From Methanomassiliicoccaceae archaeon DOK (lineage in GTDB: Archaea; Thermoplasmatota; Thermoplasmata; Methanomassiliicoccales; Methanomethylophilaceae): a stretch of 64,000 nt of DNA. Positions within the stretch are counted from its first letter, which is position 1. The number at the start of each line of letters is the position of its first letter. Made by a program: the position numbers and the translations under genes. The notes beneath the pieces were generated by a model, which made no database searches, was not told the origin of the DNA, and saw only the letters and a list, made by a program, of their open reading frames with translations. Of this stretch, positions 7,501 to 24,452 are shown in pieces. The stretch spans positions 1,178,001-1,242,000 of the forward strand of contig CP047880.1 of the NCBI GenBank assembly GCA_009911715.1. Direction: 5' to 3'.

Positions 7501-8652
7501 TTCGGCGGAACCACCAAGGACAACACCCTGACCATCGCCGAGGGTGCCACGCTCGTCGTCCCCGACGAGAAGGGAATCACCATCGAGAGCATGAGTTACA
7601 ACGCCGCTGAGAAGGATGAGTATGCAGTCGTCACCGTCGACGGAACTCTCACCATCGAGGAGGGTGGAATCTTCACATACACCGCTGGATCCGCCACAAT
7701 CGGAGATAAGGATAACCAGCCGTACTACAACGCCATCGTCAGGATCAACGGAACCATGAACGTCGCCAGCCCCGTCACCGTCCAGAGCAACGTCTACGTC
7801 GATGGTACTCTGAACGTCCTCACTGAGGGCGACGACAACGGAAAGGTCACCGTTCCCGCCGGAGCGAGGGTCTTCGTCAACGGTGCCATCAACGGTGCCG
7901 TCGAGATATCCACAAAGACTGGATTCATCTACGCCTACCCCGAGGCGACCGTGGACACCGCCAACCTGAACCTCCAGGACGACGGAACCACCACCGCTAG
8001 CGCAACCGCAGTCTACATCAACGGTGGCCTGTACATGACCGTCTACGGACTCGACGAGGTCGTCATCGTGAATGCCCTCCCCACTGACGAGTTCGACGTG
8101 CCCGGATACGAGGATGTCGTCTGGCCTGACAACGATGACAAGACTGAGGACACAGTCTGGTATTCCGACGCCGAGTACCAGAACGAGATCGACATCACCA
8201 AGGACTACCTTGAGGACGCCACAGCGATCTACGCCAAGCTGGATCCGCTCAACGCCACCGTACAGGTGTCCGTCGGACAGGGAATCTCCCTGTATGTCGA
8301 CGGAGTCAGGGTCGACGGTCTTCAGTACCTGCCCTACAACCAGTCCACAGTCGGTGACCACACCGTGGAGTACACCATCGACCCCGGATACAAGGGAGAG
8401 GCGACCATCACCTTCGCCGGACAGACCGTCACCAACGGCGGAACTATCACCATCACTCCCGAGATGACCAGCAGCACCGCTGACGCACTGGTCCTCTCCG
8501 TCTCCGGAAACATCACCCAGGACTCCACCGTCGTCGTCGACGGCGGAGACAACGGATCCGGAATGGGTCTCACTGACTACCTGCTCATCGTCCTCGTCGT
8601 GCTCATCGTGATCATGGCCATCATGGTTGCAATGAGGCTCATGAGGTCCTGA
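4576..8652 (+). CDS. Adhesin-like giant surface protein, type A
   Basis: 1,358 residues. A signal peptide covers roughly residues 1-39: basic N-terminus (TKTNRGK), hydrophobic core (LLAAVLAIMMVFTGVAVIA) and a small-residue cleavage region near GVDAA. The body is beta-helix-like repeats with many VNGT, IDGT and VDGT turns. A C-terminal transmembrane helix and MRLMRS tail match the preceding gene. The start is set by the signal peptide and by a TATA-like box 25 bp upstream. The segment around 5017-5200 is AT-richer than the flanking sequence and uses different codons (many GGA/ACT/GTT), suggesting a swapped-in block. Expected to be exported by Sec and tethered with its stalk outside. The ligand is unknown; adhesion is inferred from the architecture. 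Confidence 0.88.
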   Translation: MNANVTKTNRGKLLAAVLAIMMVFTGVAVIAGDNGVDAATWNMDGDINADQPIRAGTDAVATGPFNITNNSELTIESGASFVINEGVKVTVKSGSTLTIMSGAAVEINGTLVIEDDATLQNGANYDGVNTVSKHYTGVVVNGTIEAERGAVITGAPVESVTNTGSGISGLSVIVDGRFVSNFSGNVTGTSTDNNYVVDVKGTGTIPTHLNGNGDSGAWMALRVGSPILSNVTAGDSVDITINGRASDSDDKVLTGGYVDIWLNAGSVYNVVLKVNDTTYTFKIDTTQVTTDRNYTGGVSGTIVLGADGVLKTSSSNNTKSTFEHQTVLMNVGATANINSLTNDVDVRAIPATDRYPYTYGEVSINADKTGATEVVNLTFGVTSEKISSAFTDEGDENKTSRATNYILTISGDVDGANALRVVPTTPVNGQTGTLYYPDENDEKSDIEMAGIVAIDGTLDISGKGATFSIANGAIVNVNGTLNVKGGNNNTELATIYLSGIVNVSGTIDIENAAPIGSGASADTDKRVNFYTYGVGYLNIIDAGKVTIDGFSVEALASGTNGSSISDKMAGINGAAYETDDGVFIMGLQAAMDAAIAAKEDTVHVFGYDAGTRVFATPYVISADTTIPDDMTICIDGIVSVAEGVTLTISVDAEIDTDGKGLIDVAGTVMDYSMYEFGDSAAEDYASVADGNIKIKAEVRSTDADDTYFMYTTLKNALAGTAGTVELYGNVEVEGTLTIPTGFTVELSGHDMLIKNDATLVIDGVVDSTDAGSSITVTNKDGNKEAGKVTLNNMIVNPNVVDTTTPVANDYVIGGFTANGTIGDYENVDFVLAPAVAAANASTLNDITAVGKFSYSGELVFTAGEDNEGDVITIDAGKTDNKANEITIGTITLNGFGITLKSGAFTGTVQVPVTAGTSAVEFTKAVGYTISTAEDDSGEEIVTEAVIGQLTATGTQEVGGAVTIAAGTVQLGTTATFGGTTKDNTLTIAEGATLVVPDEKGITIESMSYNAAEKDEYAVVTVDGTLTIEEGGIFTYTAGSATIGDKDNQPYYNAIVRINGTMNVASPVTVQSNVYVDGTLNVLTEGDDNGKVTVPAGARVFVNGAINGAVEISTKTGFIYAYPEATVDTANLNLQDDGTTTASATAVYINGGLYMTVYGLDEVVIVNALPTDEFDVPGYEDVVWPDNDDKTEDTVWYSDAEYQNEIDITKDYLEDATAIYAKLDPLNATVQVSVGQGISLYVDGVRVDGLQYLPYNQSTVGDHTVEYTIDPGYKGEATITFAGQTVTNGGTITITPEMTSSTADALVLSVSGNITQDSTVVVDGGDNGSGMGLTDYLLIVLVVLIVIMAIMVAMRLMRS

Positions 8653-8798
8653 GCTGACTGAAAACCGAATAGGAAAGGGTTGAACGCACAACAGAACGCG
8701 AAACAAAGAGTACATCTGCTCCCGCGTTGAGAGAGCGCAACTCACCAGAAACCTGAACAGCAAACGGGTCCCCCGGAGTTAAGGGGCCGGGGACCCAC
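8653..8798 (+). terminator. Type A 3' element, second copy
   Basis: Same order of elements as after the preceding gene. The main stem is GGGTCCCCCGG (8766-8776) with CCGGGGACCC (8787-8796), one bulged C, and again the loop AGTTAAGGGG. The smaller hairpin keeps TTGAGAGAG while one stem pair changes from A-T to G-C. Compensatory change plus loop conservation points to selection on RNA structure. Confidence 0.6.
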
Positions 8799-8910
8799 AT
8801 TAATTTCCATTTCTCCGATGCTCGATTTTCAACCCATTTCGGAATCCTGTCGTCCCCACAGTGGCTGCGATGCTTATACTACACTCTTTATAGTATAGGA
8901 CGTGCATTCG

Positions 8911-8987
8911 TAATTATAAACAGATTATCGGCGGGGGGGGGCGACTCAGGTTGTTTCTCCCTCCGTCCCTCCGCCCGAGGAGGAAAA
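8911..8987 (+). promoter_or_regulatory. TATA box, G9 tract and RBS-sequestering leader of type B gene 1
   Basis: TATA box ATTATAAA lies at 8913-8920. A run of nine G occupies 8933-8941. A small hairpin CGAC/GTTG (8942-8953) follows, then C/T-rich sequence, then CCTCC (8968-8972), which can pair with the Shine-Dalgarno GGAGG (8979-8983) across a 6-nt loop. The ATG follows four bases later. The G run can alternatively pair with the C/T-rich stretch, freeing the RBS. Three further genes have the same leader. Confidence 0.6.
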
Positions 8988-11900
8988 ATGAACCACCCGG
9001 CTAAAATCACAGCAATCTTAGTTTTAGCTATTCTGATTGCCGTAACCGCTGCATCCGTTTCACCATCCAACGATGCAGCCGTCCAGACACATGATCTGGA
9101 ACCCGAAGATGGTAACGCTCTGATACAAGCGATAACAGACAACTCGTATGGCACAGGGGACACCGTCAACATCACCCTCGGAGCTGGCATCGAGTACGTT
9201 CTGACGTTCACCGAATCCCAGGGAGAGATGACGTTCAACGGGAAGAACCTGAACATAACCTCCGATGGGAGCAATCCTGCAACGATCAAGATCGAAAGCT
9301 CAGGCACTGTGAACTCAGTGATCATCCAAGTCAAGGAGGCCAACCACTCGAGCTCGAACCTCACTGTGTCCAATGTGACCTTTGCAAGCAACACTGACAC
9401 CGAAAGCGCCGAGGTTCTGCACAGGTACTTCTGGAACGTGACATTCTACGACTGCACTTTCAACAACTCCGCACTCACCCGCACCCTGGGTGGAAACGAC
9501 ACCACTACCGGCGGGGTGACCACAATCACGAATTGCAAGTTCAACGGACCCGGAAATGAAGGACACAACACGCTGAGCGAAGGGAAATTCGCCGTCACCA
9601 CGAACTCCGGTTGCCTCGAGTTCCAACGCAACGTGATAACAGGATACGACCGCGGCCTGAACGCCATCATCAACCAGAACGATGACGGTCGCTATCTCGT
9701 AGTCTCCAACAATAAATTCACTGATCTCGGGGTGACCGATTATCAGAAACCCATGGCCTTCCAGTTCGGAGGGGACCTCCAGGACATGGAGATCATCTTC
9801 AGCATAAACGAACTGGACTCCGTGAAATACGGGGTGTCGGTCCACAACAGCGTCAAATCCAGCGACAGCACGCAGCTGCTGGTTGCGATGAACACCTTCT
9901 CAAATGTCATAAATCATGTGCTGTACTCCGGCTCCGGTGAAGCCGAACCCATCGTCCCGGTTCCTGTATTGGGACTCATGAATCTAGATGCAGATAATGA
10001 TTATATCGAACTCAGCTACGGATTCGAGGATGCGTCCCAATCTTCTACGGGAATTTCCATCACCAACTACGGCCCTGAATCCCTTGATTGGTTCATGAGC
10101 GTCATTGTTCATAATCTTAAGGCATTCACTCTGAACTCGGCCACCGACCTCCTTACACTCTCGCTGATGGTGAACGCCGGCCAGACCTTCGCAGACTGCA
10201 CCCTCACCCTCGGCAGCGACATCGATCTCTCGAGAATCGATTGGATTCCCATCGGAAACCCTGTGCACCCGTTCACTGGATCGTTCTCGGGTAACGACGG
10301 CACTACAATCCACACCATAACAGGACTCACCATCGACAAGATGGAATCGCAGGGCGATGTTTACGCCGGACTGTTCGGGTACATCGTCGGAGCTCCCAAC
10401 AATAAGTTCACATCGACATCCGACGTGTATAATGATGGAAACTATTCCGAGACCGCCGTGGACCCGACCAACTACACGGCCACGGTCCAGGACCTCGTTA
10501 TCTCGAACGCCAGCATAGACACCACCGGATCCCGTGTAGGTGCACTTGCAGGATATGCTGACAACACATACATCTCCGGGGTTACCGTTACCAACGGACA
10601 TGTTTTCGGAGGCAGCACCACCGGGGGTGTGATCGGAATAGGCTACTCCGTCGTGCTGAAGGAATGTTCTACCAAGGGAACATTCTATGTGAGCTACCAA
10701 AGAGATACGGACGCGTACAACGTTGGTGGCATAGCGGGATGCATCCGTGGAAACACGGGACATCCGAGCCTGGTGACCGGATGCGTCAACGAAGCCACTG
10801 TGACCGCCAGGGCCAACATCGGAGGTCTTGGAGGGATCATCGGACACATCAACGGCTCCGTACCCGTGGTCGTGTACGGTTGCGAAAACCGCGGGTACGT
10901 GGCCTCCAATCCGATGGGAGAAATCGACAATCCCTACGACGGGTCCGTCGGTGGCATAGTCGGATTCTTCCAGGGCTCATATGGAACAACTGCAGGAGAG
11001 AACGTCATCGCAAACTCCAAGAACTACGGCAAGGTGATGACCACATCTGGATCCAAGTTGACGGGAAACCTGTCCGGTATCGTCGGTGAGTACTACTCCG
11101 GATCCATCGTGAACTGCCACAACCATGGAACCATCGAGGGAAGCGCGATCTTCGTCGGGGGCATCATGGGTCACGGTGCCATAAACGACAGGGTCGTGAT
11201 CGACGGATGCACCAACTCCGGAGAACTGACGAACTCCTCGCAGGAATACAGTGAGAACGTCTCCGGTATCGCCGTCTCCGCCACAGTGATTGACGTCGCC
11301 GAACCGGACCGCAGGGACATCCTGTACAGGAACATGACGTTCGACACCACCGAAGACCTCCTGAATGCCATGCCCAAGACCGGCATGGAGTCGGGAGTGG
11401 GCCTGAACTACAGCGGCGTGGCGTTCTCGATGGAGGATGTCGTGGTGTTGACCCCCGGGCCCTTGGACCTGCCGGACCGTGTGTTCGGGTTCACCGCCGA
11501 CACGCAGGTGGCCACCTCCATAACAATGGGATCGGAAACCACCAACACCTCTGTCGCGAAAATATTCGTTCCTGGCGTAACCGTCACGATAGACGGCGAG
11601 TATAACTCCGTCTGGCTGAACGGTGACGGGTTCGACCTGACCAACAACGGAGACATCGGCACCATCAGAGTATACGGTGGAGACGGGATCATCATCAGGA
11701 ACGAGAGTACGGTAGGGGAGGTCACAGACGCATTCTTCAATGGGTACAACAGCACCATACAATCCGGTTACTCTGGATGTGCATCGATCACGATCTACAA
11801 CGGATCGACAGATCCCAGCAGTGCGATAATGAACAACGTCACGTCCCTGTATCTGAACACCGAGCTCTACAACTACGGAACCATCGAATCCGGAGAAAAT

Positions 11901-13241
11901 CTGCTGAGGGTCGGAGTCGAATGCGATGAAACCCCTGTGGAACAGAACAACACATTCGTCGTCCACAACCACGGCGAGATGATTGGAGAGCGCACAGGAG
12001 AGCCGGATGAACAGTACAACTACATGTTCTTCATCCCCGCGGCGAAGAAGTTCACACTGATCAACTACGAAGGATCAAATCTCGTGAACAATGGAGCCTG
12101 TACAAGCAGCAGCGGTTCCGACTACTGGTTCATATACTACGGAACCGACGGACATGATTCCTCAGACGATCCATCGTCTGACGTTAAGGGAACTATGGAG
12201 TTCTACCTGGCAGACGATACCGTTCTGAAGAACAATGCCGCCTACCCAGACACAGGAAAGTTCGACACCGATTGTCTGAAGAGCCTCACTGTGGGCAAGA
12301 ACAACCCCGATGTCGACATCAAGGTGCAGGCGCTGTCCGCTGATGACGGCTCGGTCACCTTCTCGGATGGGTTCGACGACTCGGAAACCGTACCTCTGGT
12401 CAACGGAAGCCCCATCAATCCCCCAGAGTTCACCAAGGGCGGACTCAACATGGTCCCCTGGGACATCGATGCGTACGAGGATGGGGAAACATACACTGCC
12501 CAGTGGACGGTCGCCCCCTTCACACCCACGATCAAGGTGGATGTTGAGAACCCGGTTGTAGGGCAGACGGTGAACCTCACTGCCAGCTTCTTCGCGTACC
12601 CGTACCTCGCCTATGCATGCGTATGGACCGTCGGAGGAGAGATCCTTACAGGAAGCACCGTCGCTTACACTGTGAAGGACATCTCGACCGAAGTCGTCCT
12701 GAAGATCAGTGTGACAGCTGCGGACGGTTATGATTGCATCACAGAGACATACACGACCAGCGATGTGCCGTTGACACTAACAGCGACAGAGCCTTCAGTG
12801 TACGAGGTCACATTCGACGTCAACGTCGATGGTTACGACGTGGATGTCACTGATCCCGATGGTACACCCTACACCAGCGAAAACGGGACCTACATGTTGC
12901 CTGACGGCGATTACACGGCCATCTTTACCAAGTCTGGCTATGTTGACAAGACCATCGACTTCACAGTGAATGGGAAGGATGAAGTGATTCCAGTCAAGAT
13001 GGAACCAGAGGCCATAGATCCAGAACCGGGTCCCGATGAGCCCACTGATCCCGATACTCCAAGCATTGACCCTGGCTATCCGACTATAGACCCGGATGAC
13101 GACTACGTCCCTCTCCCACCGGTTGTTGTCGATGAGTCTGGATCCTCTGATGACGACACAGTGAAGATCGTTGCCTGCGCCGCCGCGGCTGTGGTAGCAG
13201 CGCTGATGGCCGCGTTCCTCATCATCAGCAGAAGGGACTGA
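8988..13241 (+). CDS. Adhesin-like giant surface protein, type B, with GLUG-type repeats
   Basis: 1,417 residues. Signal peptide at about 1-30 (hydrophobic AILVLAILIAVTAASV). The N-terminal half is parallel beta-helix-like. Residues around 480-780 carry repeated glycine motifs such as VGGIVGFFQGS and VGGIMGHGAI interleaved with cysteine-containing NC.N.G strands, resembling GLUG repeats. Near the C-terminus come an Ig/PKD-like segment and a PEGA-like segment (DGDYTAIFTKSGY). An Asp/Pro-rich linker with DDDYVPLPP follows, then a hydrophobic helix (KIVACAAAAVVAALMAAFLI) and tail SRRD. GGAGG at 8979-8983, four bases from the ATG, fixes the start. Probably an exported, anchored adhesin. The same YVPLPP-helix ending occurs in the next three genes. 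Confidence 0.87.
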   Translation: MNHPAKITAILVLAILIAVTAASVSPSNDAAVQTHDLEPEDGNALIQAITDNSYGTGDTVNITLGAGIEYVLTFTESQGEMTFNGKNLNITSDGSNPATIKIESSGTVNSVIIQVKEANHSSSNLTVSNVTFASNTDTESAEVLHRYFWNVTFYDCTFNNSALTRTLGGNDTTTGGVTTITNCKFNGPGNEGHNTLSEGKFAVTTNSGCLEFQRNVITGYDRGLNAIINQNDDGRYLVVSNNKFTDLGVTDYQKPMAFQFGGDLQDMEIIFSINELDSVKYGVSVHNSVKSSDSTQLLVAMNTFSNVINHVLYSGSGEAEPIVPVPVLGLMNLDADNDYIELSYGFEDASQSSTGISITNYGPESLDWFMSVIVHNLKAFTLNSATDLLTLSLMVNAGQTFADCTLTLGSDIDLSRIDWIPIGNPVHPFTGSFSGNDGTTIHTITGLTIDKMESQGDVYAGLFGYIVGAPNNKFTSTSDVYNDGNYSETAVDPTNYTATVQDLVISNASIDTTGSRVGALAGYADNTYISGVTVTNGHVFGGSTTGGVIGIGYSVVLKECSTKGTFYVSYQRDTDAYNVGGIAGCIRGNTGHPSLVTGCVNEATVTARANIGGLGGIIGHINGSVPVVVYGCENRGYVASNPMGEIDNPYDGSVGGIVGFFQGSYGTTAGENVIANSKNYGKVMTTSGSKLTGNLSGIVGEYYSGSIVNCHNHGTIEGSAIFVGGIMGHGAINDRVVIDGCTNSGELTNSSQEYSENVSGIAVSATVIDVAEPDRRDILYRNMTFDTTEDLLNAMPKTGMESGVGLNYSGVAFSMEDVVVLTPGPLDLPDRVFGFTADTQVATSITMGSETTNTSVAKIFVPGVTVTIDGEYNSVWLNGDGFDLTNNGDIGTIRVYGGDGIIIRNESTVGEVTDAFFNGYNSTIQSGYSGCASITIYNGSTDPSSAIMNNVTSLYLNTELYNYGTIESGENLLRVGVECDETPVEQNNTFVVHNHGEMIGERTGEPDEQYNYMFFIPAAKKFTLINYEGSNLVNNGACTSSSGSDYWFIYYGTDGHDSSDDPSSDVKGTMEFYLADDTVLKNNAAYPDTGKFDTDCLKSLTVGKNNPDVDIKVQALSADDGSVTFSDGFDDSETVPLVNGSPINPPEFTKGGLNMVPWDIDAYEDGETYTAQWTVAPFTPTIKVDVENPVVGQTVNLTASFFAYPYLAYACVWTVGGEILTGSTVAYTVKDISTEVVLKISVTAADGYDCITETYTTSDVPLTLTATEPSVYEVTFDVNVDGYDVDVTDPDGTPYTSENGTYMLPDGDYTAIFTKSGYVDKTIDFTVNGKDEVIPVKMEPEAIDPEPGPDEPTDPDTPSIDPGYPTIDPDDDYVPLPPVVVDESGSSDDDTVKIVACAAAAVVAALMAAFLIISRRD

Positions 13242-13296
13242 ACAGTAACCTAAGAAACCAATTACCCATGGCACGGGGGATGGTACCGTGCCTCAG
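13242..13296 (+). terminator. Type B 3' element, copy 1
   Basis: A conserved AACCT...AAACC stretch after the stop leads to the stem GGCACGG (13270-13276) with CCGTGCC (13286-13292), loop starting GGG. Four type B genes carry this element. Confidence 0.6.
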
Positions 13297-13340
13297 ATGA
13301 TTCTGATTTTGCTCAAGCCATGAAAAAACGGGCATAGTTT

Positions 13341-13431
13341 TAACTTATAAAATCACAATCTTCTACAAGCGATTAGTTACGGGGGGGGGGACGACACAGG
13401 TCTCTCCTCCTACCCTCCGTTTGGAGGAGAA
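13341..13431 (+). promoter_or_regulatory. TATA box, G10 tract and RBS-sequestering leader of type B gene 2
   Basis: TATA box TTATAAAA at 13345-13352; ten consecutive G at 13381-13390; small hairpin GAC/GTC (13393-13402); C/T-rich TCTCCTCC; then CCTCC (13414-13418) pairing with the RBS GGAGG (13423-13427) across a GTTT loop. ATG at 13432 after a 4-base spacer. Confidence 0.6.
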
Positions 13432-16400
13432 ATGAAAAATAAAATTCTAACAATGGCCGTTATTATAACGATGGCTGCTCTGACCATTGTAATGATTCCG
13501 TCTAATGAATCTGATGCAGACACTGGCGGAACATTCACTGTTGGTGAAAACACGTTCAATTCACTATCAGAGTCCATTGACAACCTAGGTTCTAACGATA
13601 AAATCGTGATGAATGGAAATGTGACTTTAGACTCAGTGGTTGTTGTTGACAATCAAAGTTTTACGCTGAACCTGAATGGATTCACTCTGACTGGACCCAC
13701 TGCCGAGAATAATGAAGGAACCATTCTGGACATCAAAGGTGATTCTTCAATCTACATAACTGGTAATGGGGCTCTTGTAAACCAATCCTTTGGTTCAGCA
13801 GGGACTTCTAAAAATCTCAATGACGCTAGTTGCATAATAGATGTTCGTGCCAATTCAACACTAGTCCTTGAAAACGTAAAAGTGGATGCCATGGGATACG
13901 GCGTCGGAGTATGGACTGATGGGGAACTTCAAATCAAAAACGCGAATATTATCGCTGGAACCTCAGCAGTAGCTGGAAATGGTACAAATTCTAATGCAAC
14001 CATATCCATATTCAACGGATATTTTGAATCTGAGAATTCAGCAGCAGTTTTCTTTCCAAGCTCTGGCGAACTAACAGTGACAGGCGGAGAATTTGTGGGA
14101 AAAACAGGTTTTGACTTACGTGGAGGAACATGTTCTATAGATAATTGTTCAATCAAAACCAGTGGATCGATTGACACTAATAAAGAAGAAAATGACGGCC
14201 CGGTTGCCTGGGGATTCGGAATAGTGGCGTTCAACATGCCGGGCTACGGAAACAACGATGAAAACATCTCCTTGACAATAGGTGATAATGTCACCATCAA
14301 CACTTCTGATATCTCATCTGATTTATACGTAGGTGGGTATCCCGAATTTGAGGGTGACGACAGATCATTCTCAGCTCCAGTGACATATGATCCGTCTCAT
14401 GATATGATAATCAACACACCTCAGGTGAAATTCACAGTTGATAAAGACAGCGCCTATCTTTCAGGAAACCTTAATGCCGACTTTAAAAACGGTACTCTTC
14501 AACTTAAAAGCGAGATGAGAGTTCTCGGATCCAATACTCTCGAGGTTAAAGAAGGACAGACCTTCGATCTTTCCAACTGCAGATTAGCATTTGCGTTAGG
14601 AGAGATTTATAGCAACGGCAATGTAATTGCATCACCAACTGATGCAACCACATTTATTAATTCTAACACCGGACTCTCTATTTTTTCACAATCAGGCAAT
14701 TTTGGCAATAACCATTCAGCGAAACTCACATTGGATGGAGATATTGTTCTAGAAAAAACAGTAACCCTCTCGTTTGTAGGTACAATGGACCTCAACGGGC
14801 ATATCATTTCATGTTCTGCAAACACGCCAATAGCTACCAACACTCAGACCCTGATTGATACAGGGGAGGAAAAGGGTAAGATAGAATATACGGGCAGTGC
14901 GAACAATGTTGCCGCATTGAATATTCTTGGAACTGCCATCTTGGATGGCATTTGTGTGGAATCCACTGCATATGGAATTGCAACAACATTCGATAACGCC
15001 AACGTGTCTATTTCCAACGTTGATGTGAAGGCCGTTGGACCAGCACTTGCGTCGAACGGAACATTGTCAGGAACATCAATGAAAATTGACAGCGGAAATT
15101 ACATTAGCACAGGATCGGTTGCAGTTTACATACCTAACGGGGACTTCGACCTGTCTGGTGGAACATTCACAGGTTTATCTGGACTGCAGGTTTGTGGAGG
15201 AAGCTTATCTGTTTCTGGCGATGTAGAGGTCAATGCAACAGGGGTTGAAGAAGAAAAGAAAGAGAACGACGGGCCTGTAGTGGATGGCGCTGCACTGTCT
15301 GTCATTAACCGCAATGGTGCATACCACATAGAACATATAACAGTAAACGGTGGAAAGTTCAATTCTTCGTCTGGAGTTGCAGCAAAAGCATATTCCTTGG
15401 ACGGAACCACGATTTCTGACTGGAACACTCCTGCCGAATCAACGATCACCATCATGAACGGAAACTTCCAAGGAGATGTTTCCAAAGATCTGTTGGGTGA
15501 AGGGCTGGAGATTGGTGACAATGGGGACGTCGTAGGTAAGGAGGGTGTCGTATTCGATGTGACATCGGACCAATTCCTCGACAATGCCGAATATAATGAC
15601 CGCACAGTGACATTCGAGCTCACCAGAGATTACCGCATCACGGGCAACCACATCGTCTATTTTGAGAACCTGGACGTTAAAGACTACGATTCCATCATCA
15701 TAAACGGGAACGGGCACACAATCTACGGGGAGCTTTGGTTCGACAGCACATTCCAGAGTGAGGAAAGCGCGAACTACTCAGTATCCATCCAAGGGCTGAC
15801 CCTCGACGGATCGGTGTTCGGAACCGGGAACGTATACGACGGAGAAGATGCCAACAACGGCTACGGTATAGTCATCATGAACCAGAGACCGGCAGTGGAC
15901 GACCCTCGCATCGTGGACTTCTCCATCACCGACTCCGAGATCAGGAACTACGGCTCCAAGGGGATCTACATCCATACGGTGTCCGATGTCCTCATCTCTG
16001 ACGTTCTGATCGAGAACTGCGCCTTCACACCCCATTGGCAGACATGGGGTGAGGATCCAGAATCTGACAGCCTGAAGTACTATGACAGAGGGGACTACGC
16101 AGTGGACATCGATGTCACCGGGGTCGAATGCAACAGCATCACTATAAGGGATGTCACTTTCAAGGGAACCTCCGGCTCCCTTGCCGCCCTGAAGATCGCT
16201 CAGCGCGGCGGTGCCGGTGACGACCCAAACGTCTGGGGCGACGCAACTATCTTAGGTGTGACGATGGATGGACTCGATTTCTCGGATTCCTCTGCTCCCA
16301 GGGATATCGTTCTCGGAAGCGAACCCAACATCACTGGAGACAACCAGGAAGAGCTCAGGGACTACAACTCGGCGTTCCCGATCGACCTGACTGCATATGG

Positions 16401-16845
16401 AGAGACATCTCTGTCTATCTGGGGAAGTGACAGGCACGGAGACGAGAACCTCAGTCTGGCCCTCTCCGATGGGTCCAGAGTCCGTTCAACAGGGAATACA
16501 GACGAAAACAGAGAGTCCGGAAGAATCTCGATAGAACTGATATCCGGAACCGCCCGTGTATCCGGCGTATTGGGGCCCAACATGTCCTTTACGGCCGATG
16601 AAAGCGCAGTAACCTTCGCATCGGATTTCGTGGATAGAAGCGGGGGAGGGCTCAACATCCACGAATCCGAAGCTCCTCCGTACAATCCGGGCTGGAACGA
16701 TGACGACGACTATGTTCCGCTACCCCCGGTAATCTATGAGGAACCTGAACGCGACAACACGACAGAAATCGTCGCCTGCGCCGCGGCTGCTGTGGTCGCG
16801 GCACTGATGGCAGCATTCCTGATTCTCGAGCGCAGAAGGAACTGA
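13432..16845 (+). CDS. Adhesin-like surface protein, type B, compositionally chimeric
   Basis: 1,137 residues. Signal peptide at about 1-29 (MKNKILTMAVIITMAALTIV then SNESDA). The N-terminal two thirds contains an internal duplication: residues about 120-270 and 500-640 share the order variable strand, SAVFF/VAVYIP, LTVTGGEF/FDLSGGTF, then KEENDGPV. Both halves look like beta-helix rungs. The C-terminus has DDDDYVPLPP, the hydrophobic helix AAAAVVAALMAAFLI and the tail ERRRN. The DNA is visibly AT-rich from the start to about 15,600, then switches to the GC-rich codon use of its neighbours, so the gene looks like a graft of a foreign passenger on a resident anchor. Adhesion is inferred from architecture only. 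Confidence 0.87.
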   Translation: MKNKILTMAVIITMAALTIVMIPSNESDADTGGTFTVGENTFNSLSESIDNLGSNDKIVMNGNVTLDSVVVVDNQSFTLNLNGFTLTGPTAENNEGTILDIKGDSSIYITGNGALVNQSFGSAGTSKNLNDASCIIDVRANSTLVLENVKVDAMGYGVGVWTDGELQIKNANIIAGTSAVAGNGTNSNATISIFNGYFESENSAAVFFPSSGELTVTGGEFVGKTGFDLRGGTCSIDNCSIKTSGSIDTNKEENDGPVAWGFGIVAFNMPGYGNNDENISLTIGDNVTINTSDISSDLYVGGYPEFEGDDRSFSAPVTYDPSHDMIINTPQVKFTVDKDSAYLSGNLNADFKNGTLQLKSEMRVLGSNTLEVKEGQTFDLSNCRLAFALGEIYSNGNVIASPTDATTFINSNTGLSIFSQSGNFGNNHSAKLTLDGDIVLEKTVTLSFVGTMDLNGHIISCSANTPIATNTQTLIDTGEEKGKIEYTGSANNVAALNILGTAILDGICVESTAYGIATTFDNANVSISNVDVKAVGPALASNGTLSGTSMKIDSGNYISTGSVAVYIPNGDFDLSGGTFTGLSGLQVCGGSLSVSGDVEVNATGVEEEKKENDGPVVDGAALSVINRNGAYHIEHITVNGGKFNSSSGVAAKAYSLDGTTISDWNTPAESTITIMNGNFQGDVSKDLLGEGLEIGDNGDVVGKEGVVFDVTSDQFLDNAEYNDRTVTFELTRDYRITGNHIVYFENLDVKDYDSIIINGNGHTIYGELWFDSTFQSEESANYSVSIQGLTLDGSVFGTGNVYDGEDANNGYGIVIMNQRPAVDDPRIVDFSITDSEIRNYGSKGIYIHTVSDVLISDVLIENCAFTPHWQTWGEDPESDSLKYYDRGDYAVDIDVTGVECNSITIRDVTFKGTSGSLAALKIAQRGGAGDDPNVWGDATILGVTMDGLDFSDSSAPRDIVLGSEPNITGDNQEELRDYNSAFPIDLTAYGETSLSIWGSDRHGDENLSLALSDGSRVRSTGNTDENRESGRISIELISGTARVSGVLGPNMSFTADESAVTFASDFVDRSGGGLNIHESEAPPYNPGWNDDDDYVPLPPVIYEEPERDNTTEIVACAAAAVVAALMAAFLILERRRN

Positions 16846-16900
16846 ACAGCAACCTGAGAAACCGCTTTCCCATGGCACGGGGGTTGGTACCGTGCCCATC
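16846..16900 (+). terminator. Type B 3' element, copy 2
   Basis: Stem GGCACGG (16874-16880) with CCGTGCC (16890-16896), loop GGGTTGGTA; same upstream AACCTGAGAAACC block as the other type B genes. Confidence 0.6.
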
Positions 16901-17040
16901 ATGATTCTACATCTTCGGTAAAAACCACATTTCCTCGACACATAAACCCGATGCCATCGTTAGCGATCCTATGGATACGAGAAGCACACTATGTGAATTA
17001 TATATGTTCTATATATTGAACATCACTGAACACTACATTA

Positions 17041-17143
17041 CAATTTAAGAGGATAAGAGCATATTACGTGTCGCAGATTTTCACGGATGGGGGGGGGGGC
17101 GACCCAGGTCGATCCCCCCTACGTCCCTCCGTGCGGAGGAAGC
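17041..17143 (+). promoter_or_regulatory. Promoter, G11 tract and RBS-sequestering leader of type B gene 3
   Basis: TATA-like ATTTAAGA at 17043-17050; eleven G at 17089-17099; perfect small hairpin CGAC/GTCG (17100-17111); six C (17114-17119) able to pair with the G run; CCTCC (17126-17130) pairing with the RBS GGAGG (17135-17139) across GTGC. An upstream ATG (17087) abuts the G run and is in frame with the gene only at this tract length. Confidence 0.6.
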
Positions 17144-20100
17144 ATGAACAGTATAACGAAAGCAATAGCACTGCTTGTCGTGCTTCTGACAGCAACAGCG
17201 GGAGTTGCCATGATGGCGGACTCCTCTGATGCTGCCCCAGCAGACATACAGGAACCGGTGCCCGCTTCGAATCCCGAAGCCGGGACCGCTATCGCAAAAG
17301 TGGACGGAACACCCTATACGGACTTCGAAGTCGCCGTCGACGCAGCGATATCTTCCAATAAAACGTTGACCCTACTGAACGACTACCAGATTACTAATCT
17401 GAACCTGGACGCCGAAAGCGTTACCATAGACCTCAACACAAAGATCCTATCTTTCGAGAGGATCAAGCTGATCAACGCATCGTCACTGACCTTCGAGAAC
17501 GGAACACTCAACGGACTGTACATCGGAGCGGCCAATGAGGCATCCATTGCCGTAAACACGGGATGCTCTGTGACGCTCAACGATGTGAACTACTACACCA
17601 AAGCCACGGGACTGTTCCCGAGTGGGGACGCTGCCTCCGTCACAGTCAAGAACGGATCTGTTGTCCATGCAGTCGGATTCTGCATCGGGACCAACGCCGG
17701 TTCGAGCTCCAACTACTATGTTGACATAAAAATCAGTGATTCGGGAATCTACGCGGATTCCGACTCCAGTGCCGCTGGAACAGCCGTATTCTACAACGTC
17801 CCGGGATCCCTGACGATAACCGACAGCACCGTCCAGGGATACTTCCACGGGGTCATCGTGAGAGGCGGAACGGCCGTGATATCCGGATCCACGATCACGA
17901 ACACGATGAACCTCTCCGGCTGGGAGACATACTATGATTCCGAGCCCTGGGGGACCGGGAACTCCATCAAACTCGGCGCACTGGTCCTCGGGAACAGGGA
18001 CAACGCATCCTACAACTATCCCACGGACGTCACCCTCATCGACACCGACGTCATCTCTGACGGAACATACGGCGCGAACTACTCCGCGGTGTACATGTGG
18101 GCCAATCCCGATCCCGAGAACGGTGTCAACCTCGTGTACGATTCGGCCTGCACGTTCAGCAACCTCAACTCCACGACCAACGACCTGTTCTTCTACGGAA
18201 ACAACGGAGCCAACATCACCGCCGGACTCGCGGTGGCCCAGGCCGGGGACAGGATCTACAACAGCCTCCAGGCGGCCATCGACGACGACAACGAGGAGAT
18301 CACCCTGGTCGGCGACACCAAGGAGAACGTGGTCGTAGACGGACAGACTGTGACTCTGGACCTCAACGGCAAGACGGTCACCAACGTCGACGACCACACC
18401 ATCACGGTGAAGTCCGGGGAGCTCACGGTAAAAGGCAAGGGTACAGTCCAGAACCTCACCCACCAAAAAGCCGCCCTCGCAGCATACCCCGGCACCAAGG
18501 TGACCCTCAACGGCGGAACCTTCGACAGGACCAACGAGACCGGCACCGGCCCCGACACATCCGGGAACAACTCATGGTACACCATCAAGAACCACGGTGA
18601 CATGACGATCGACGGAGCCACCGTGAGGAACGGTGGCGGGTTCTCCAGCTGCATCAACAACGGCTGGTACAGCGGCTCCGCCCAGGGCACCCCAGGCAAC
18701 AACGACCTCGCGGTCTACGCAGGCACCAACGCGAAGCTGACCATCGTCAGCGGGAAGATCGACGGCGGACTGAACGCCGTCAAGAACGACGACTACGGAG
18801 AACTCCTTGTACAGGGAGGAGAGCTCACCAACTCGGTCCAGGCGACCATCCTCAACTGGAACATCGCCACCATCGAGAAGGGTACGTTCAGCGCCACGAG
18901 CGATGCCAAAGCGGTCATCCTCAACGGGAAGATCGACGGCACCATGGACAAGGGCCAACTGACGATCTCCGATGGAACGTTCTCCGGCCCTGTCGGAATC
19001 CAGATGATGTCCGGAGGCGTCGGCATCGGAGACGTGACCATCACCGGCGGCACGTTCAACATCTCATCGGACAACATCATCGACCCCCTGACAGGCACGG
19101 AGACGAACGTCCAGGTGTCCGGGGGCTCGTTCTCGGACGACAGCGTCCTGGCATACCTCGTCGAGGGGAAGGGACTCGTCGAGAATGGAACGATGTTCGA
19201 TGTCGTGGACGTCCACACCGTCACATACACGTTCAACGACACCACTTACATAGAGAAGGTCATCAGCGGACAGACGGCCACACAGAACACGATTCCGGCT
19301 CTGCCTACGCTTCCTGAAGGATGCGAGTATGATTTCGGAGAGTGGGATAAAACGGCCCCCGTCACAGAAGACGTCAGCGTCTCGGTGAAGGCCGAGATCA
19401 CATCCCTGACGGTCGCCATCGGCACATCCACCGTTGATGGGGTTACAACACTTACTGCGACTGTGGACTCCACCGCGAGCGGCACTCCGGCGTACACATG
19501 GTCCTCCGGAGAGGCCACGGAGAGCATCACACCGTCTGTCGGCGGAACCTACGACGTCACCGTGACCCTCACCGTCACAAGCGGCGATGTCACCGTCACC
19601 GGAAAAGCGAACGCATCGGTCACCTACACACCTTCCGAAAGCGGAAGCACCACCACGACCACCACGAACCCCGACGGTTCCACCACCACTGTGGAGACCG
19701 ACTCCGACGGTTCGGTCACCGAGACGACCACCAAGACTGAGACCACGGAAACTGGCAACGAGATCACCACGGTCACCACGACCGGGAGTGATCCTTCCGG
19801 AAGCCAGACGACCAGCTCAACAGAGGTCACCATAGAGGCCGCTTCCGGAACTTCTGGAAGCGTCTCACTGCCCGAGGAGGATGTTAACTCCGTCATTGAA
19901 AGCATAGCCTCTGCCGGCACCACCACCAACACGATCTCCGTCAACATCGGAGAGAACGACACCGTCACGATGGGTTCCGCCGCGATCTCCGCCATTGCAG
20001 AGTCCAACGCGGTGCTCGAGATCTCCAATGAAAACGCGACCGTCGTCGCCGACGGCGATGTTATCGAGACCCTCTCCACAGGAGACGTCTCCATCACGGT

Positions 20101-20620
20101 GGGCTCGGCAACCCATGACAACCTGAACGAATCGCAGCAGCAGTCCGTGCCAGAGAACTCAACAATCGTCGAGCTCTCAGCCACTGTGGGAACAAGTCCC
20201 GTCCACGATCTGAACGGAACCGTGGAGGTCACCATGACCTACACACTCCCGTCCGGGATCGATGCGGACGATGTGATCGTGTTCTACGTCGACGACGACG
20301 GTGCGCTCCATCAGATGAGAACAGTGTACGCCGAAGGAATCCTGACGTTCTACACCACCCACTTCTCCTACTACTTCGTGGGAGACAGGTCCATGATTCC
20401 CTCTGTGGATCCGGAGCCCTCTCCCGGAGAGGACGACCAGCCCGTGGTCGTCCCGCCGGTGGATGACGATGACGACTACGTCCCGCTTCCGCCGATCGTC
20501 GACACCGACGGATCCGGATCATCCGGCGGAGACGACACCGTAAAGATCGTCGCCTGCGCCGCCGCGGCTGTGGTGGCAGCGCTGATGGCAGCGTTCCTCA
20601 TCATCAGCAGAAGGGATTGA
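17144..20620 (+). CDS. Adhesin-like surface protein, type B, Thr-rich stalk
   Basis: 1,158 residues from the ATG at 17144, chosen because GGAGG lies four bases upstream and a clear signal peptide follows (AIALLVVLLTATAGVAMMA, cleavage near SSDAAPA). An in-frame ATG at 17087 would add 19 residues and spoil the signal. Residues about 30-680 are beta-helix-like. A Listeria-Bacteroides-like strand motif (EGCEYDFGEWDKTAPV) comes next, then a Ser/Thr stalk (TTTTTTNPDGSTTTVETDSD), a globular region with YYFVGDRSMIP, and the DDDDYVPLPP plus transmembrane anchor. The C-terminal ~450 residues are closely related to the next gene. Expected to be anchored in the membrane with a likely glycosylated Thr stalk (inference). 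Confidence 0.87.
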   Translation: MNSITKAIALLVVLLTATAGVAMMADSSDAAPADIQEPVPASNPEAGTAIAKVDGTPYTDFEVAVDAAISSNKTLTLLNDYQITNLNLDAESVTIDLNTKILSFERIKLINASSLTFENGTLNGLYIGAANEASIAVNTGCSVTLNDVNYYTKATGLFPSGDAASVTVKNGSVVHAVGFCIGTNAGSSSNYYVDIKISDSGIYADSDSSAAGTAVFYNVPGSLTITDSTVQGYFHGVIVRGGTAVISGSTITNTMNLSGWETYYDSEPWGTGNSIKLGALVLGNRDNASYNYPTDVTLIDTDVISDGTYGANYSAVYMWANPDPENGVNLVYDSACTFSNLNSTTNDLFFYGNNGANITAGLAVAQAGDRIYNSLQAAIDDDNEEITLVGDTKENVVVDGQTVTLDLNGKTVTNVDDHTITVKSGELTVKGKGTVQNLTHQKAALAAYPGTKVTLNGGTFDRTNETGTGPDTSGNNSWYTIKNHGDMTIDGATVRNGGGFSSCINNGWYSGSAQGTPGNNDLAVYAGTNAKLTIVSGKIDGGLNAVKNDDYGELLVQGGELTNSVQATILNWNIATIEKGTFSATSDAKAVILNGKIDGTMDKGQLTISDGTFSGPVGIQMMSGGVGIGDVTITGGTFNISSDNIIDPLTGTETNVQVSGGSFSDDSVLAYLVEGKGLVENGTMFDVVDVHTVTYTFNDTTYIEKVISGQTATQNTIPALPTLPEGCEYDFGEWDKTAPVTEDVSVSVKAEITSLTVAIGTSTVDGVTTLTATVDSTASGTPAYTWSSGEATESITPSVGGTYDVTVTLTVTSGDVTVTGKANASVTYTPSESGSTTTTTTNPDGSTTTVETDSDGSVTETTTKTETTETGNEITTVTTTGSDPSGSQTTSSTEVTIEAASGTSGSVSLPEEDVNSVIESIASAGTTTNTISVNIGENDTVTMGSAAISAIAESNAVLEISNENATVVADGDVIETLSTGDVSITVGSATHDNLNESQQQSVPENSTIVELSATVGTSPVHDLNGTVEVTMTYTLPSGIDADDVIVFYVDDDGALHQMRTVYAEGILTFYTTHFSYYFVGDRSMIPSVDPEPSPGEDDQPVVVPPVDDDDDYVPLPPIVDTDGSGSSGGDDTVKIVACAAAAVVAALMAAFLIISRRD

Positions 20621-20675
20621 ACGGAAACCTGAATAACCTCTTACCCCCGGCACAGGGGTTCGTACTGTGCCATTC
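20621..20675 (+). terminator. Type B 3' element, copy 3 (compensatory pair)
   Basis: Stem GGCACAG (20649-20655) with CTGTGCC (20665-20671), loop GGGTTCGTA. Relative to the other copies one G-C pair is replaced by A-T on both sides, direct evidence for a conserved helix. Confidence 0.65.
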
Positions 20676-20689
20676 CCCTCTTCTTCAAG

Positions 20690-20792
20690 ATATACTATAA
20701 ATCATTTAGAGCATATTCCACGTCCAAAGATTTTCGCGGGGGGGGGGGACCAGACCCTGGCTCAACCCTTCGCCCTCCGACAAGGAGAAGAA
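20690..20792 (+). promoter_or_regulatory. Promoter, G11 tract and RBS-sequestering leader of type B gene 4
   Basis: TATA-like ACTATAAATC near 20692-20701; eleven G at 20738-20748; hairpin CCAG/CTGG (20750-20760), differing in sequence but in the same place as the other leaders; CTCC (20775-20778) pairing with GGAG (20784-20787). ATG at 20793. Upstream it shares CATATT, CACGT and AGATTTTC blocks with the preceding gene's leader. Confidence 0.55.
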
Positions 20793-23700
20793 ATGAAAGA
20801 GAAAATACTGACCATCGCTGCGATTTTGGCTGCGGTGGCAATGATCGTTCTGTCCGTTCCGGCATCCGAAGTCGAGGCGGACGAAGCTAATCCGTTCACA
20901 GTCGTGGACGGAACGGACTATCCTACACTCGGTGACGCGTTGACCAACGTGTCCAATGCGGGCACTATACAGTTGAACACCAACGCAACCTTCATCGCCG
21001 ATGATAAGCTGAACATAAACAAGTCAGTGACCTTGGATCTCAACGGATTCACATTGACGACATCCACGACCCTTACCGTCGCCAAAGATATGACTTTAAC
21101 AATTGAAGACAGCAGTGCCGAAGGCACGGGTCTGTTCTCCACGTCGAAGCAGTACGCTATCGACGTCTACGGAACCTTGAAATTGGAGTCCGGCAACATG
21201 GAAAGCTCCGCTGATACCATCATCAGGGTATATGGAAGCGGTGCATTCGAGATGACCGGAGGAACCATAGAAGGTTCCAAGGGACAGGGAGTTTTCGTGA
21301 TGGGCTCAGCCACCATAACTGCCGGAACCATAGGTGCAACTGAAACGGCAAACTCCTCTTACGCCGCCCTCAAGCTTTCCACCAATGGCAGTGCAACTAT
21401 CGGTACGGCCGACACATCCCCATATCTGTACTCTCTGAATCCCAACGGACTTGATGTCATGATGGTCTCGGGTATCGTTGGAAAGGTCAACGGAGACTTC
21501 GGCGCTGACAGCCAGTTCAACGGCGGCAAATTCGAGAGCTCTCCTGAGAATTATCTCCCCAGTAAATACGCCGCCCAGTCGGACAGTTCCGGTTATTGGA
21601 TCGTAGTTCCATTCACCGATGACCACGCCAAAGCCTCAATCACGAAATCCGACGGAACCGTCAATCTGTACCCCACCCTCATTAGCGCCGGAAAGGCCAT
21701 GGAGAGCGGCGACACTCTGACACTGCTTGAGGATTACAAAGGAGACAGAGTGGTCACCGTCAACATCTACTACGGTACCATCGACCTCAACGGGTGTGAT
21801 GTTACCTGCACGAAGACTGGGACATCCGGTTACGGAATCAACATAGCAAAGGGAACCGGCACCTATGATTCCTCGAACACGAACACCATAGTCATCACAT
21901 CCGATACAGAATCCACCATCGAGGCAAGCTACCCCGTATCGATCAGCAGCGGGAACAGCAAAAACTCTGTCTACATAAAGGTCGAAGGCAGTGTCACACT
22001 GGAATCCACAGAAGGAAGAGACCTAATCAAGCTGGGTTCTGGCTCCTCTGCCCTGTTCACAGAGAACATCAGAGACTGCTTCGTCAACGGGGGATTCGTC
22101 GCAACCGTAAATGATGTGGAGTACGTCTACGGCACAGCCTCAGCCGCGCTCAGAAACAGCGACGACGGCTATGCTAAGATGCTGAACAACTACACGGGCA
22201 ACATCGTACTCGATTCTCCCAGAACCTACACTCTCGATCTTGACGGCTACACCGTCACATACAACACCACCATCGACCCTGACAATCTACAGGCCGCCGT
22301 CACAATCTACGGCGAGACGACACTCACAATAAAGAACGGGAAGATTGAGACCAACGTTTCTGGAATCGCTCCAGGGCTGGTACACAGCGGTGGCACCATC
22401 GAGAACAACGTGTCGCTGACTCTGGACAACGTCCAGCTGACCGCGGACAACATGTATGCAATATACAGCAACGGAACCTGCGAGAACATCCAGGTCAAGG
22501 TCATCAACGGCTCAAGTGTGGTCTGCACATCGTCCACAGGCGTTGGAATCTACTTCCCTGCAGAAGGCTCCCTGACCATCACAGATTCCACAGTCAAGGG
22601 AGGAACCGGAATCGAAGTCCGCAAGGGCTCCCTGGAGATATCCGGAGATAAGACCGTCATCGAGGCCACCGCCTCGAAATATTCCGTACACGAAACCCCT
22701 GACGGGGGAGGAAGCACAGTCCTCGGTGCTGCGGTAGCGATCTCCCCGTACAGCGGAATCGATTCGATGAGCGTCGACATCTCCGGTGGAACCTTCACCG
22801 GCGCGGTGGCGTTCGCACAGGCACATGCCGATGAGGAAACCGTCATGCCCACTTTCGACTTCTCCATCAGCGGAGGAAGTTTCACATCCACCGGGAAGGA
22901 CGTGAACAGCGATACATACCCCGCCATAGTAACCGAGAAGGGTGAGGTCACTGGAGAATTCATCTCCGGGGGCTCGTTCTCGGACGAAAGCGTCCTGGCA
23001 TACCTCGTCGAGGGGAAGGGACTCATCGAGAAAGGAACGATGTTCGATGTCACGAACATGTATACGATCACATACACGTTCAACGAAAAGGAGTACACGG
23101 AGACTGTCCCTGAAGGCTTTGCCCCCAGCACTGATGTGCTCCCCGAGCTCCCGGCAGGTTGCGTGTACGACTTCGGGACATGGGACAAAACCGCCGCCGT
23201 CACAGAAGACACCAGCGTCACCGTGACGGCCGAGATTACCGAACTGTCCGTGACGATATCCGTTTCGGTTGAGGACGGCACCACTTCACTCAGGGCGATT
23301 GTCGAGTCCTCTGCGAGCGGCGAGACGACCTATGCCTGGAGCAACGACGAAGACAAGGAAACCATCACCGTTACGGAGAGCGGAGAGTATACCGTCACAG
23401 TCACTCTCACAACCACTTCTGGAGAAATCTCGGTCTCCGGCATTGCGACTGCGAAAACGACATACACCGCTACCGAGAACGGAGGTTCCAGCACGACCAC
23501 TGAGAACTCCGACGGGTCCAAGACGGAGACCGTCGTCGAAGAGGACGGATCCATGTCAGAGACCACCGAGAAGAGCGAGACCACAACATCCGGCAATACC
23601 GTTACGACGGTCATCACCACCGGGAAGGACTCCTCCGGAAAAGAGATCGAAAGCACCGCATCCGCCACAATCGATGCGACTCGGTCTCAGACTGGAGATA

Positions 23701-24452
23701 TCGTTGATATCCCTGTAGGAGACGTCACCGTAGCGGTCGAAAGCATCAAATCTGCTAACGACAAGACCGTCTCGATAAGCATCGGTAACAACGACAAGGT
23801 AACTATCGCCCCCGAAGCGATGGAAGCCATCTCCTCATCCGAAGCGAAACTGGAGATCTCCAACGATACGGCGAAGATTGTGGCGGACAAGACCGTCGCA
23901 AACACGCTCGCCTCTGACCAGAGTGTCTCCATATCCGTGAGTTCCGCTGAACACGCCGACCTGAATGACACTCAGCAGCAGTCCGTTCCCGAGAATTCCA
24001 CGATCATCGAGCTTTCAGCCACTGTAGGATCTGACCCGATCCACGAACTGGGAGGAACGGTGGAGGTCCACATGAAATACAGCCTCCCCGAAGGGATCGA
24101 TGCGGACGATGTGATCGTGTTCTACGTCGATGATGAGGGTGTGCTGCATGATATGGTGACCAAGTTCGCTGACAACATCATCACGTTCTTCACGAACCAC
24201 TTCTCCTACTACTTCGTGGGAGACAGGTCGATGATCGTGCCAGAGGATCCAGAGCCGTCTCCGGGTGAGGATGACACCCCTGTAGTCGTTCCACCCGTTG
24301 ATGATGAAGATGACTACGTCCCACTCCCCCCGGCCATCGTCGAAGAACCGGGATCGTCGGATGATGACACCGTGAAGATCGTCGCCTGCGCCGCCGCGGC
24401 TGTGGTAGCAGCGCTGATGGCCGCGTTCCTTATCATAAGCAGAAGGGACTGA
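20793..24452 (+). CDS. Adhesin-like surface protein, type B, paralogue of preceding gene
   Basis: 1,219 residues from the ATG at 20793. The start is supported by AAGGAG just upstream and a signal peptide (KILTIAAILAAVAMIVLSV, then ASEVEA). The N-terminal ~700 residues are unrelated in detail to the preceding gene but also beta-helix-like. From the GGSFSDESVLAYLVEGKGL motif to the end the two proteins align throughout: Thr/Ser stalk, YYFVGDRSMI, DDYVPLPP and anchor. At the junction (about 22,966-23,050) the DNA is nearly identical to 19,116-19,200, much closer than the downstream parts, suggesting gene conversion at that point. Function as a surface adhesin is inferred. Confidence 0.87.
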   Translation: MKEKILTIAAILAAVAMIVLSVPASEVEADEANPFTVVDGTDYPTLGDALTNVSNAGTIQLNTNATFIADDKLNINKSVTLDLNGFTLTTSTTLTVAKDMTLTIEDSSAEGTGLFSTSKQYAIDVYGTLKLESGNMESSADTIIRVYGSGAFEMTGGTIEGSKGQGVFVMGSATITAGTIGATETANSSYAALKLSTNGSATIGTADTSPYLYSLNPNGLDVMMVSGIVGKVNGDFGADSQFNGGKFESSPENYLPSKYAAQSDSSGYWIVVPFTDDHAKASITKSDGTVNLYPTLISAGKAMESGDTLTLLEDYKGDRVVTVNIYYGTIDLNGCDVTCTKTGTSGYGINIAKGTGTYDSSNTNTIVITSDTESTIEASYPVSISSGNSKNSVYIKVEGSVTLESTEGRDLIKLGSGSSALFTENIRDCFVNGGFVATVNDVEYVYGTASAALRNSDDGYAKMLNNYTGNIVLDSPRTYTLDLDGYTVTYNTTIDPDNLQAAVTIYGETTLTIKNGKIETNVSGIAPGLVHSGGTIENNVSLTLDNVQLTADNMYAIYSNGTCENIQVKVINGSSVVCTSSTGVGIYFPAEGSLTITDSTVKGGTGIEVRKGSLEISGDKTVIEATASKYSVHETPDGGGSTVLGAAVAISPYSGIDSMSVDISGGTFTGAVAFAQAHADEETVMPTFDFSISGGSFTSTGKDVNSDTYPAIVTEKGEVTGEFISGGSFSDESVLAYLVEGKGLIEKGTMFDVTNMYTITYTFNEKEYTETVPEGFAPSTDVLPELPAGCVYDFGTWDKTAAVTEDTSVTVTAEITELSVTISVSVEDGTTSLRAIVESSASGETTYAWSNDEDKETITVTESGEYTVTVTLTTTSGEISVSGIATAKTTYTATENGGSSTTTENSDGSKTETVVEEDGSMSETTEKSETTTSGNTVTTVITTGKDSSGKEIESTASATIDATRSQTGDIVDIPVGDVTVAVESIKSANDKTVSISIGNNDKVTIAPEAMEAISSSEAKLEISNDTAKIVADKTVANTLASDQSVSISVSSAEHADLNDTQQQSVPENSTIIELSATVGSDPIHELGGTVEVHMKYSLPEGIDADDVIVFYVDDEGVLHDMVTKFADNIITFFTNHFSYYFVGDRSMIVPEDPEPSPGEDDTPVVVPPVDDEDDYVPLPPAIVEEPGSSDDDTVKIVACAAAAVVAALMAAFLIISRRD

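Follow-up and report, generated by a model that had tools for sequence, protein, structure and literature searches.

How could an archaeon vary the display of its surface proteins from cell to cell, and could a homopolymer ahead of each gene serve as the switch? The question is raised by a locus of Methanomassiliicoccaceae archaeon DOK, a gut-type methane-making archaeon (assembly GCA_009911715.1, contig CP047880.1, positions 1,178,001 to 1,242,000, forward strand; this stretch of 64,000 nucleotides is called the window below), in which consecutive genes for adhesin-like proteins are each preceded by a long run of G. A first-pass annotation described four such runs of 9, 10, 11 and 11 G, 41-46 bases before the ATG, proposed slipped-strand phase variation, and suggested that the tract lies in the leader after the TATA box and would act on RNA structure or start-site spacing rather than by frameshift. 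We examined whether the runs are real and exceptional, how widely the leader is distributed, how it is predicted to fold, and whether its tracts are likely to be unstable.

Results

The four runs were confirmed exactly and are the only G or C runs of 7 or more in the window (Table 1). In the window, runs of length 3, 4, 5, 6, 7 and 8 numbered 1270, 353, 83, 14, 0 and 0, respectively, and then four runs of 9 or longer appeared. The genome is one contig of 1,889,135 bases and contains seven runs of length 7, one of length 8 and thirteen of 9-13, so the distribution is bimodal and the long runs form a separate class. Extrapolating the observed decay gives well under one run of 9 or more, while a first-order Markov model would give about 33 but was discarded, since it would also predict hundreds of runs of 7 or more against 21 seen. 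The distances from tract end to ATG are 46, 41, 44 and 44 bases, respectively, as first described. Thus the original observation held, and it proved to be part of a larger set: six of the thirteen long runs head the six intact genes of one adhesin-like family, namely the four in the window and a divergent pair about 10 kb upstream of it (G13 on the minus strand at genome 1167502-1167514 and G10 on the plus strand at 1167790-1167799; stretch L032). In what follows, L numbers designate individual stretches of DNA and G followed by three digits designates related genomes.

Table 1. Positions in the window of the G tracts, associated leader elements and adhesin-like genes.
Position (strand)	Feature	Detail
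8933..8941 (+)	G9 tract	leader of gene 3
8954..8964 (+)	pyrimidine block 1	TTTCTCCCTCC; predicted partner of the G tract
8968..8983 (+)	anti-SD/SD hairpin	CCTCC (8968-8972) / GGAGG (8979-8983)
8988..13241 (+)	gene 3, adhesin-like surface protein	1417 aa; ATG 8988; C-terminal anchor
13381..13390 (+)	G10 tract	leader of gene 4
13401..13411 (+)	pyrimidine block 1	TCTCTCCTCCT
13414..13427 (+)	anti-SD/SD hairpin	CCTCC (13414-13418) / GGAGG (13423-13427)
13432..16845 (+)	gene 4, adhesin-like surface protein	1137 aa; ATG 13432
17067..17085 (+)	P1 hairpin just 5' of the tract	CGTG/CACG; weak or absent in the other three window leaders
17089..17099 (+)	G11 tract	leader of gene 5
17113..17120 (+)	pyrimidine block 1	TCCCCCCT
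17126..17139 (+)	anti-SD/SD hairpin	CCTCC (17126-17130) / GGAGG (17135-17139)
17144..20620 (+)	gene 5, adhesin-like surface protein	1158 aa; ATG 17144; the listed ORF start 17087 lies upstream of the tract
20738..20748 (+)	G11 tract	leader of gene 6
20766..20771 (+)	pyrimidine block 1	CCCTTC; weakest of the four
20774..20788 (+)	anti-SD/SD hairpin	CCTCC (20774-20778) / GGAGA (20784-20788); 4 of 5 pairs
20793..24452 (+)	gene 6, adhesin-like surface protein	1219 aa; ATG 20793

The six genes encode proteins of 582-1417 residues with an N-terminal signal sequence and a shared C-terminal module (DDDDYVPLPP...DDTVKIVACAAAAVVAALMAAFLI..RR). The four window proteins have a signal peptide, a large Thr/Ser/Gly/Asn-rich secreted body and a C-terminal anchor, so the products are read from sequence as surface-exposed, while the adhesin label is an inference. 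None of the four gave a Pfam or NCBIfam match above cut-off; among the six, only the L032 minus-strand protein had matches, to PEGA and GLUG. Structure prediction of residues 1-550 of gene 6 gave a mean pLDDT of 37, which was unusable. The two preceding genes in the window (25-4263 and 4576-8652) have a different C-terminus; the leader of 4576-8652 has no tract, and that of 25-4263 lies largely outside the window. A phage-integrase-family gene (25781-27325) follows the adhesin cluster, and a BspA-type leucine-rich-repeat protein (31842-33533) lies further on.

To collect the leader more widely, genes were gathered by their C-terminal anchor and by a leader pattern, and their starts were read, which gave 28 leaders with a G run in six genomes, including one leader in another Methanomethylophilaceae genus with a different anchor. 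The related genomes carrying the leader are Candidatus Methanomethylophilaceae MAGs. The leader pattern hit 8 of 102 family genomes with almost no hits to the reversed control pattern; the hits in G037 and G054 were not this leader. A sequence model built from the leaders found them in five species of the genus and one species of another genus, and nowhere else in 147 genomes of the order at E of 0.001. A search for the anchor in named genomes gave no confirmed hit, and Planctomycetota and Georgenia hits from a leader-pattern scan of named genomes were treated as chance. Tract lengths in the 28 leaders were 6 (one leader), 9 (two), 10 (five), 11 (sixteen), 12 (two), 13 (one) and 14 (one). Pattern-based collection favours pure tracts. 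Of 36 readable genes in the five species gathered by their C-terminal anchor rather than by the tract, 26 have a leader tract of G9 or more, one more has G6, two have G tracts in the signal-peptide codons and one has a poly-C leader. In stretch L078, a gene with the same anchor (minus strand) has a C13 tract (10635-10647) about 16 bases before its ATG in place of the G-tract leader.

Read from 5' to 3', the leader contains in most cases a small hairpin, P1, whose stem sequence varies but stays complementary (for example GTGC-gatt-GCAC, TGCG-aacag-CGCA and TAGTC-aaaaag-GACTA) and which is present only directly before the tract (Fisher p 1e-7; 2e-4 after removing similar leaders), then the G run, a linker, a pyrimidine block, an anti-Shine-Dalgarno CCUCC predicted to pair with the Shine-Dalgarno (SD) GGAGG, usually 4-7 bases, and AUG. 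The 16S rRNA 3' end reads GGATCACCTCC, giving the usual CCUCC anti-SD. The anti-SD/SD hairpin is present in essentially all leaders. CCCTC/GAGGG replaces CCTCC/GGAGG in two leaders (the L032 plus-strand leader and L070) and CTTCC variants keep pairing by G-U, although most pairs do not vary because the SD itself is constrained. AT content peaks 36-50 bases before the tract; since archaeal transcription starts about 25 bases after TATA, the start is placed before the tract, which is therefore probably in the mRNA. However, the TATA elements are weak and the leader of gene 3 also has a TATA-like box only about 16 bases before its tract, so the start site is uncertain. Frameshift action of the leader tracts was rejected, since the true ATG lies 41-46 bases downstream and the tracts are outside the coding frame. 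An Rfam search over 8700-21000 of the window gave no match up to E = 1.

In the predicted ensembles the SD of these leaders is unpaired with a median probability of 0.03, against 0.33 for 33 other SD-bearing genes from the same set of loci (p = 9e-8), of which only 4 have a C[C]TCC-type element within 20 bases upstream. When the tract length n was varied in each leader, mean SD accessibility was 0.04-0.08 for n = 3-11, 0.16 at 12, 0.34 at 14 and 0.43 at 16; in these folds the SD opens from 12-15 G because the surplus G's capture the anti-SD. Compared with composition-matched shuffles of the linker and pyrimidine block, native leaders were more closed at n = 9-11 and more open at n = 14, and with similar leaders removed the rise from n = 10 to 14 was 0.25 against 0.04 (p = 0.001; 0.0076 at 39 °C). 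These are nearest-neighbour predictions that ignore co-transcriptional folding and protein factors. A G-quadruplex is possible at G11 or more in the energy model, and when this term was allowed the SD stayed closed at all lengths, so the direction and threshold are model-dependent and the quadruplex remains an objection. Most native leaders are predicted closed at their assembled length, which would mean mostly OFF or weak expression.

The evidence on tract instability is indirect, and the lengths come from assemblies, several of them draft MAGs, in which homopolymers are error-prone. Two paralogous leaders in G075 are 98% identical over 51 nt but have G11 and G12. The comparisons between close species concern other G tracts of the genus and not this leader: near the 3' end of a regulator-like gene (stretches L141 and L150), G053 and G054 have G9 and G11, respectively, with 400 of 400 identical flanking bases, while a predicted winged-helix regulator (L144 and L139) has an N-terminal coding tract of G11 in frame in G054 and G13 out of frame in G053, with 96.6% identical flanks. 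Three surface genes of the clade have coding G tracts at the signal peptide that leave the signal peptide out of frame as assembled and in frame at G10. One is in this genome (genome 119885; L039:6788-6893, genome 119788-119893), a gene of about 2404 codons with G9 just after the signal peptide, whose signal-peptide frame ends after 44 codons at G9 and opens to 2404 aa at G10, so that it looks phase-OFF in this assembly; the others are L081:4323 (G11) and L081:6605 (G9) in G077. In G053, a BspA/LRR-like surface gene (L142:1938-3600) has G12 in its N-terminal codons, out of frame as assembled and opening to 538 codons at G11. No MutS (PF00488) or NucS (PF01939) homologue was found in 31 genomes of the genus, with 11 and 7 of 14 control genomes positive, respectively, so mismatch repair may be missing in the whole genus and no known mismatch-repair route would restrain slippage.

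Further tracts occur in other positions. In this genome, a G11 tract (L034:6905-6915, genome 774905-774915) lies only 3 bases before the GTG start of a 2105-aa surface protein, that is, at the ribosome-binding site, and a C10 tract (L038:7476-7485, genome 1566476-1566485) directly abuts the TATA box (attatatac) of a short-leader gene of 239 codons that looks like an ABC transporter ATPase, a position that fits transcriptional phase variation. G12, G9 and G10 tracts (L035:7172-7183, L036:6453-6461 and L037:7422-7431, respectively) lie near the 3' ends of genes in this genome, close to GC-rich inverted repeats. The longest run seen was 23 G's in G051 (L152:2002-2024).

Discussion

We consider slipped-strand phase variation of an adhesin-like repertoire to be the likely reading of this locus, and its action through RNA folding at the SD to be plausible; the two together are about as likely as not. 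In this view, each adhesin-like gene carries its own element in the 5' leader. The pure G run would be unstable at replication, unchecked because the genus lacks both MutS- and NucS-type mismatch repair, so that daughter cells would differ in tract length at each of the six genes independently. In the mRNA, the G run would pair with the downstream pyrimidine block while the anti-SD folds onto the SD; up to about 11 G the run would be absorbed by the block and the SD hairpin would stay shut, whereas a longer run would also capture the anti-SD and free the SD. Length would thus set translation gene by gene, giving a population with mixed adhesin repertoires. What the sequences themselves establish is the tracts, the conserved leader anatomy, its linkage to one surface-protein family, the predicted SD occlusion relative to other genes, the length differences between close relatives for other G tracts of the genus and between near-identical paralogous leaders, and the absence of both repair genes. 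Slippage in this organism, length heterogeneity within a culture, a transcription start upstream of the tract, the length-dependent fold with its direction (longer being more open), and any effect of length on expression or adhesin display are inferred. The interpretation of the first-pass annotation is therefore partly supported: the placement of the tract downstream of TATA-like sequence, the exclusion of frameshift, the differing lengths, the association with surface genes and the likelihood of instability agree with our results, and its RNA-structure suggestion is strengthened by the conserved anti-SD/SD hairpin and the pyrimidine block. It saw four genes, while the element belongs to 28 leaders in six genomes, and three surface genes of the clade carry ordinary frameshift-type coding tracts as well.

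Of the alternatives, action at transcription survives best, although we regard it as unlikely. Tract length may alter promoter opening, start-site choice or early elongation (promoter escape, reiterative transcription), with the SD hairpin as a separate, constitutive translational damping. The tract lies close to the predicted start, and upstream G tracts change mRNA level in Treponema pallidum tprL, where the start site is 4 nt after the poly-G (PMC7864442), and in Moraxella catarrhalis uspA1, where G8-10 give low and G11-12 high mRNA (PMC7302503). However, TATA-to-tract spacing varies among leaders while tract-to-ATG anatomy is conserved, and a purely transcriptional role does not need the conserved pyrimidine and anti-SD blocks, which sharpen the predicted length response. 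More doubtful is control in trans, in which a C/U-rich small RNA or an RNA-binding protein reads the G run on all leaders, so that length tunes a common regulator, and the cis pyrimidine block is a competitor. One shared leader on six genes would suit a common regulator, and the length response of Helicobacter pylori RepG resembles the one computed here, but a strong cis partner is already present in each leader and Rfam showed no match in the region. About equally doubtful is a conserved SD-occluding regulatory leader in which the G run is only one strand of a stable helix and its length drifts without consequence. The conserved anatomy, the strong predicted helices and the clustering of lengths at 11 agree with it, but the run stays a pure homopolymer while 27 of 28 partner blocks contain internal U, so helix maintenance alone does not explain purity, and the many other G tracts of the genus, including frame-disrupting ones in surface genes, suit slippage being exploited. 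An assembly or sequencing artefact in tract length is very unlikely: homopolymer lengths are the least reliable part of long-read and MAG assemblies and could be off by one or two, but a tract at the same place in 28 leaders from six independently assembled genomes cannot be an artefact, and only exact lengths are in doubt.

The nearest analogues are bacterial. The closest in kind is the H. pylori tlpB-hp0102 leader, in which a 6-16 G repeat in the 5' UTR pairs with the C/U-rich sRNA RepG and transcript levels are lowest at 8-12 G and higher at 13-16 G, a graded control by length with a change of behaviour at 12-13 G (PMC8295292); there the partner acts in trans on one operon, while here the predicted partners are in cis and the element is repeated on a whole adhesin-like family. 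The uspA1 tract of about 8-12 G likewise lies upstream of an adhesin ORF and gives graded high/low switching, but it acts on transcript level in a single gene and no conserved anti-SD/SD hairpin is described for it in the text consulted (PMC7302503). The poly-G tracts of tprL and related tpr genes vary in length and are shared by paralogous surface-protein genes, but the tprL tract lies upstream of the transcription start and acts on promoter activity, while here it is predicted inside the leader RNA (PMC7864442). Frameshift-type contingency loci such as M. catarrhalis mid/hag also switch surface genes by homopolymer slippage, as the coding tracts in L039 and L081 may do, but the leader tract cannot act in this way.

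Phase variation is treated as a bacterial trait. A 2025 review mentions archaea only as a future extension (PMC11868660), and a survey that included 18 archaeal genomes found C/G tracts generally underrepresented in coding genes (PMC2831843). Searches of the open-access literature, subscription journals excluded, for phase variation together with Methanomassiliicoccales, Methanomethylophilaceae or archaeal homopolymers returned no relevant paper, and the ISO4-H5 and Methanomethylophilus alvi genome papers mention adhesins but not homopolymers. The present locus is apparently the first archaeal case with comparative support. More tentatively, the leader may be a family-wide, cis-acting RNA length ruler, in which every member of the repertoire is switched independently and the G run, at a threshold of about 12 G, shifts from a decoy pyrimidine block to an mRNA-borne anti-SD and so opens the ribosome-binding site; this would be slipped-strand phase variation in Archaea by a translational mechanism not described in bacteria. 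The reading offers a directly testable RNA mechanism, and warns that a single culture or consensus genome hides adhesin states. A gene-by-gene, heritable and reversible adhesin switch in gut methanogens would explain how they diversify attachment to hosts, protozoa or bacterial partners, or evade viruses.
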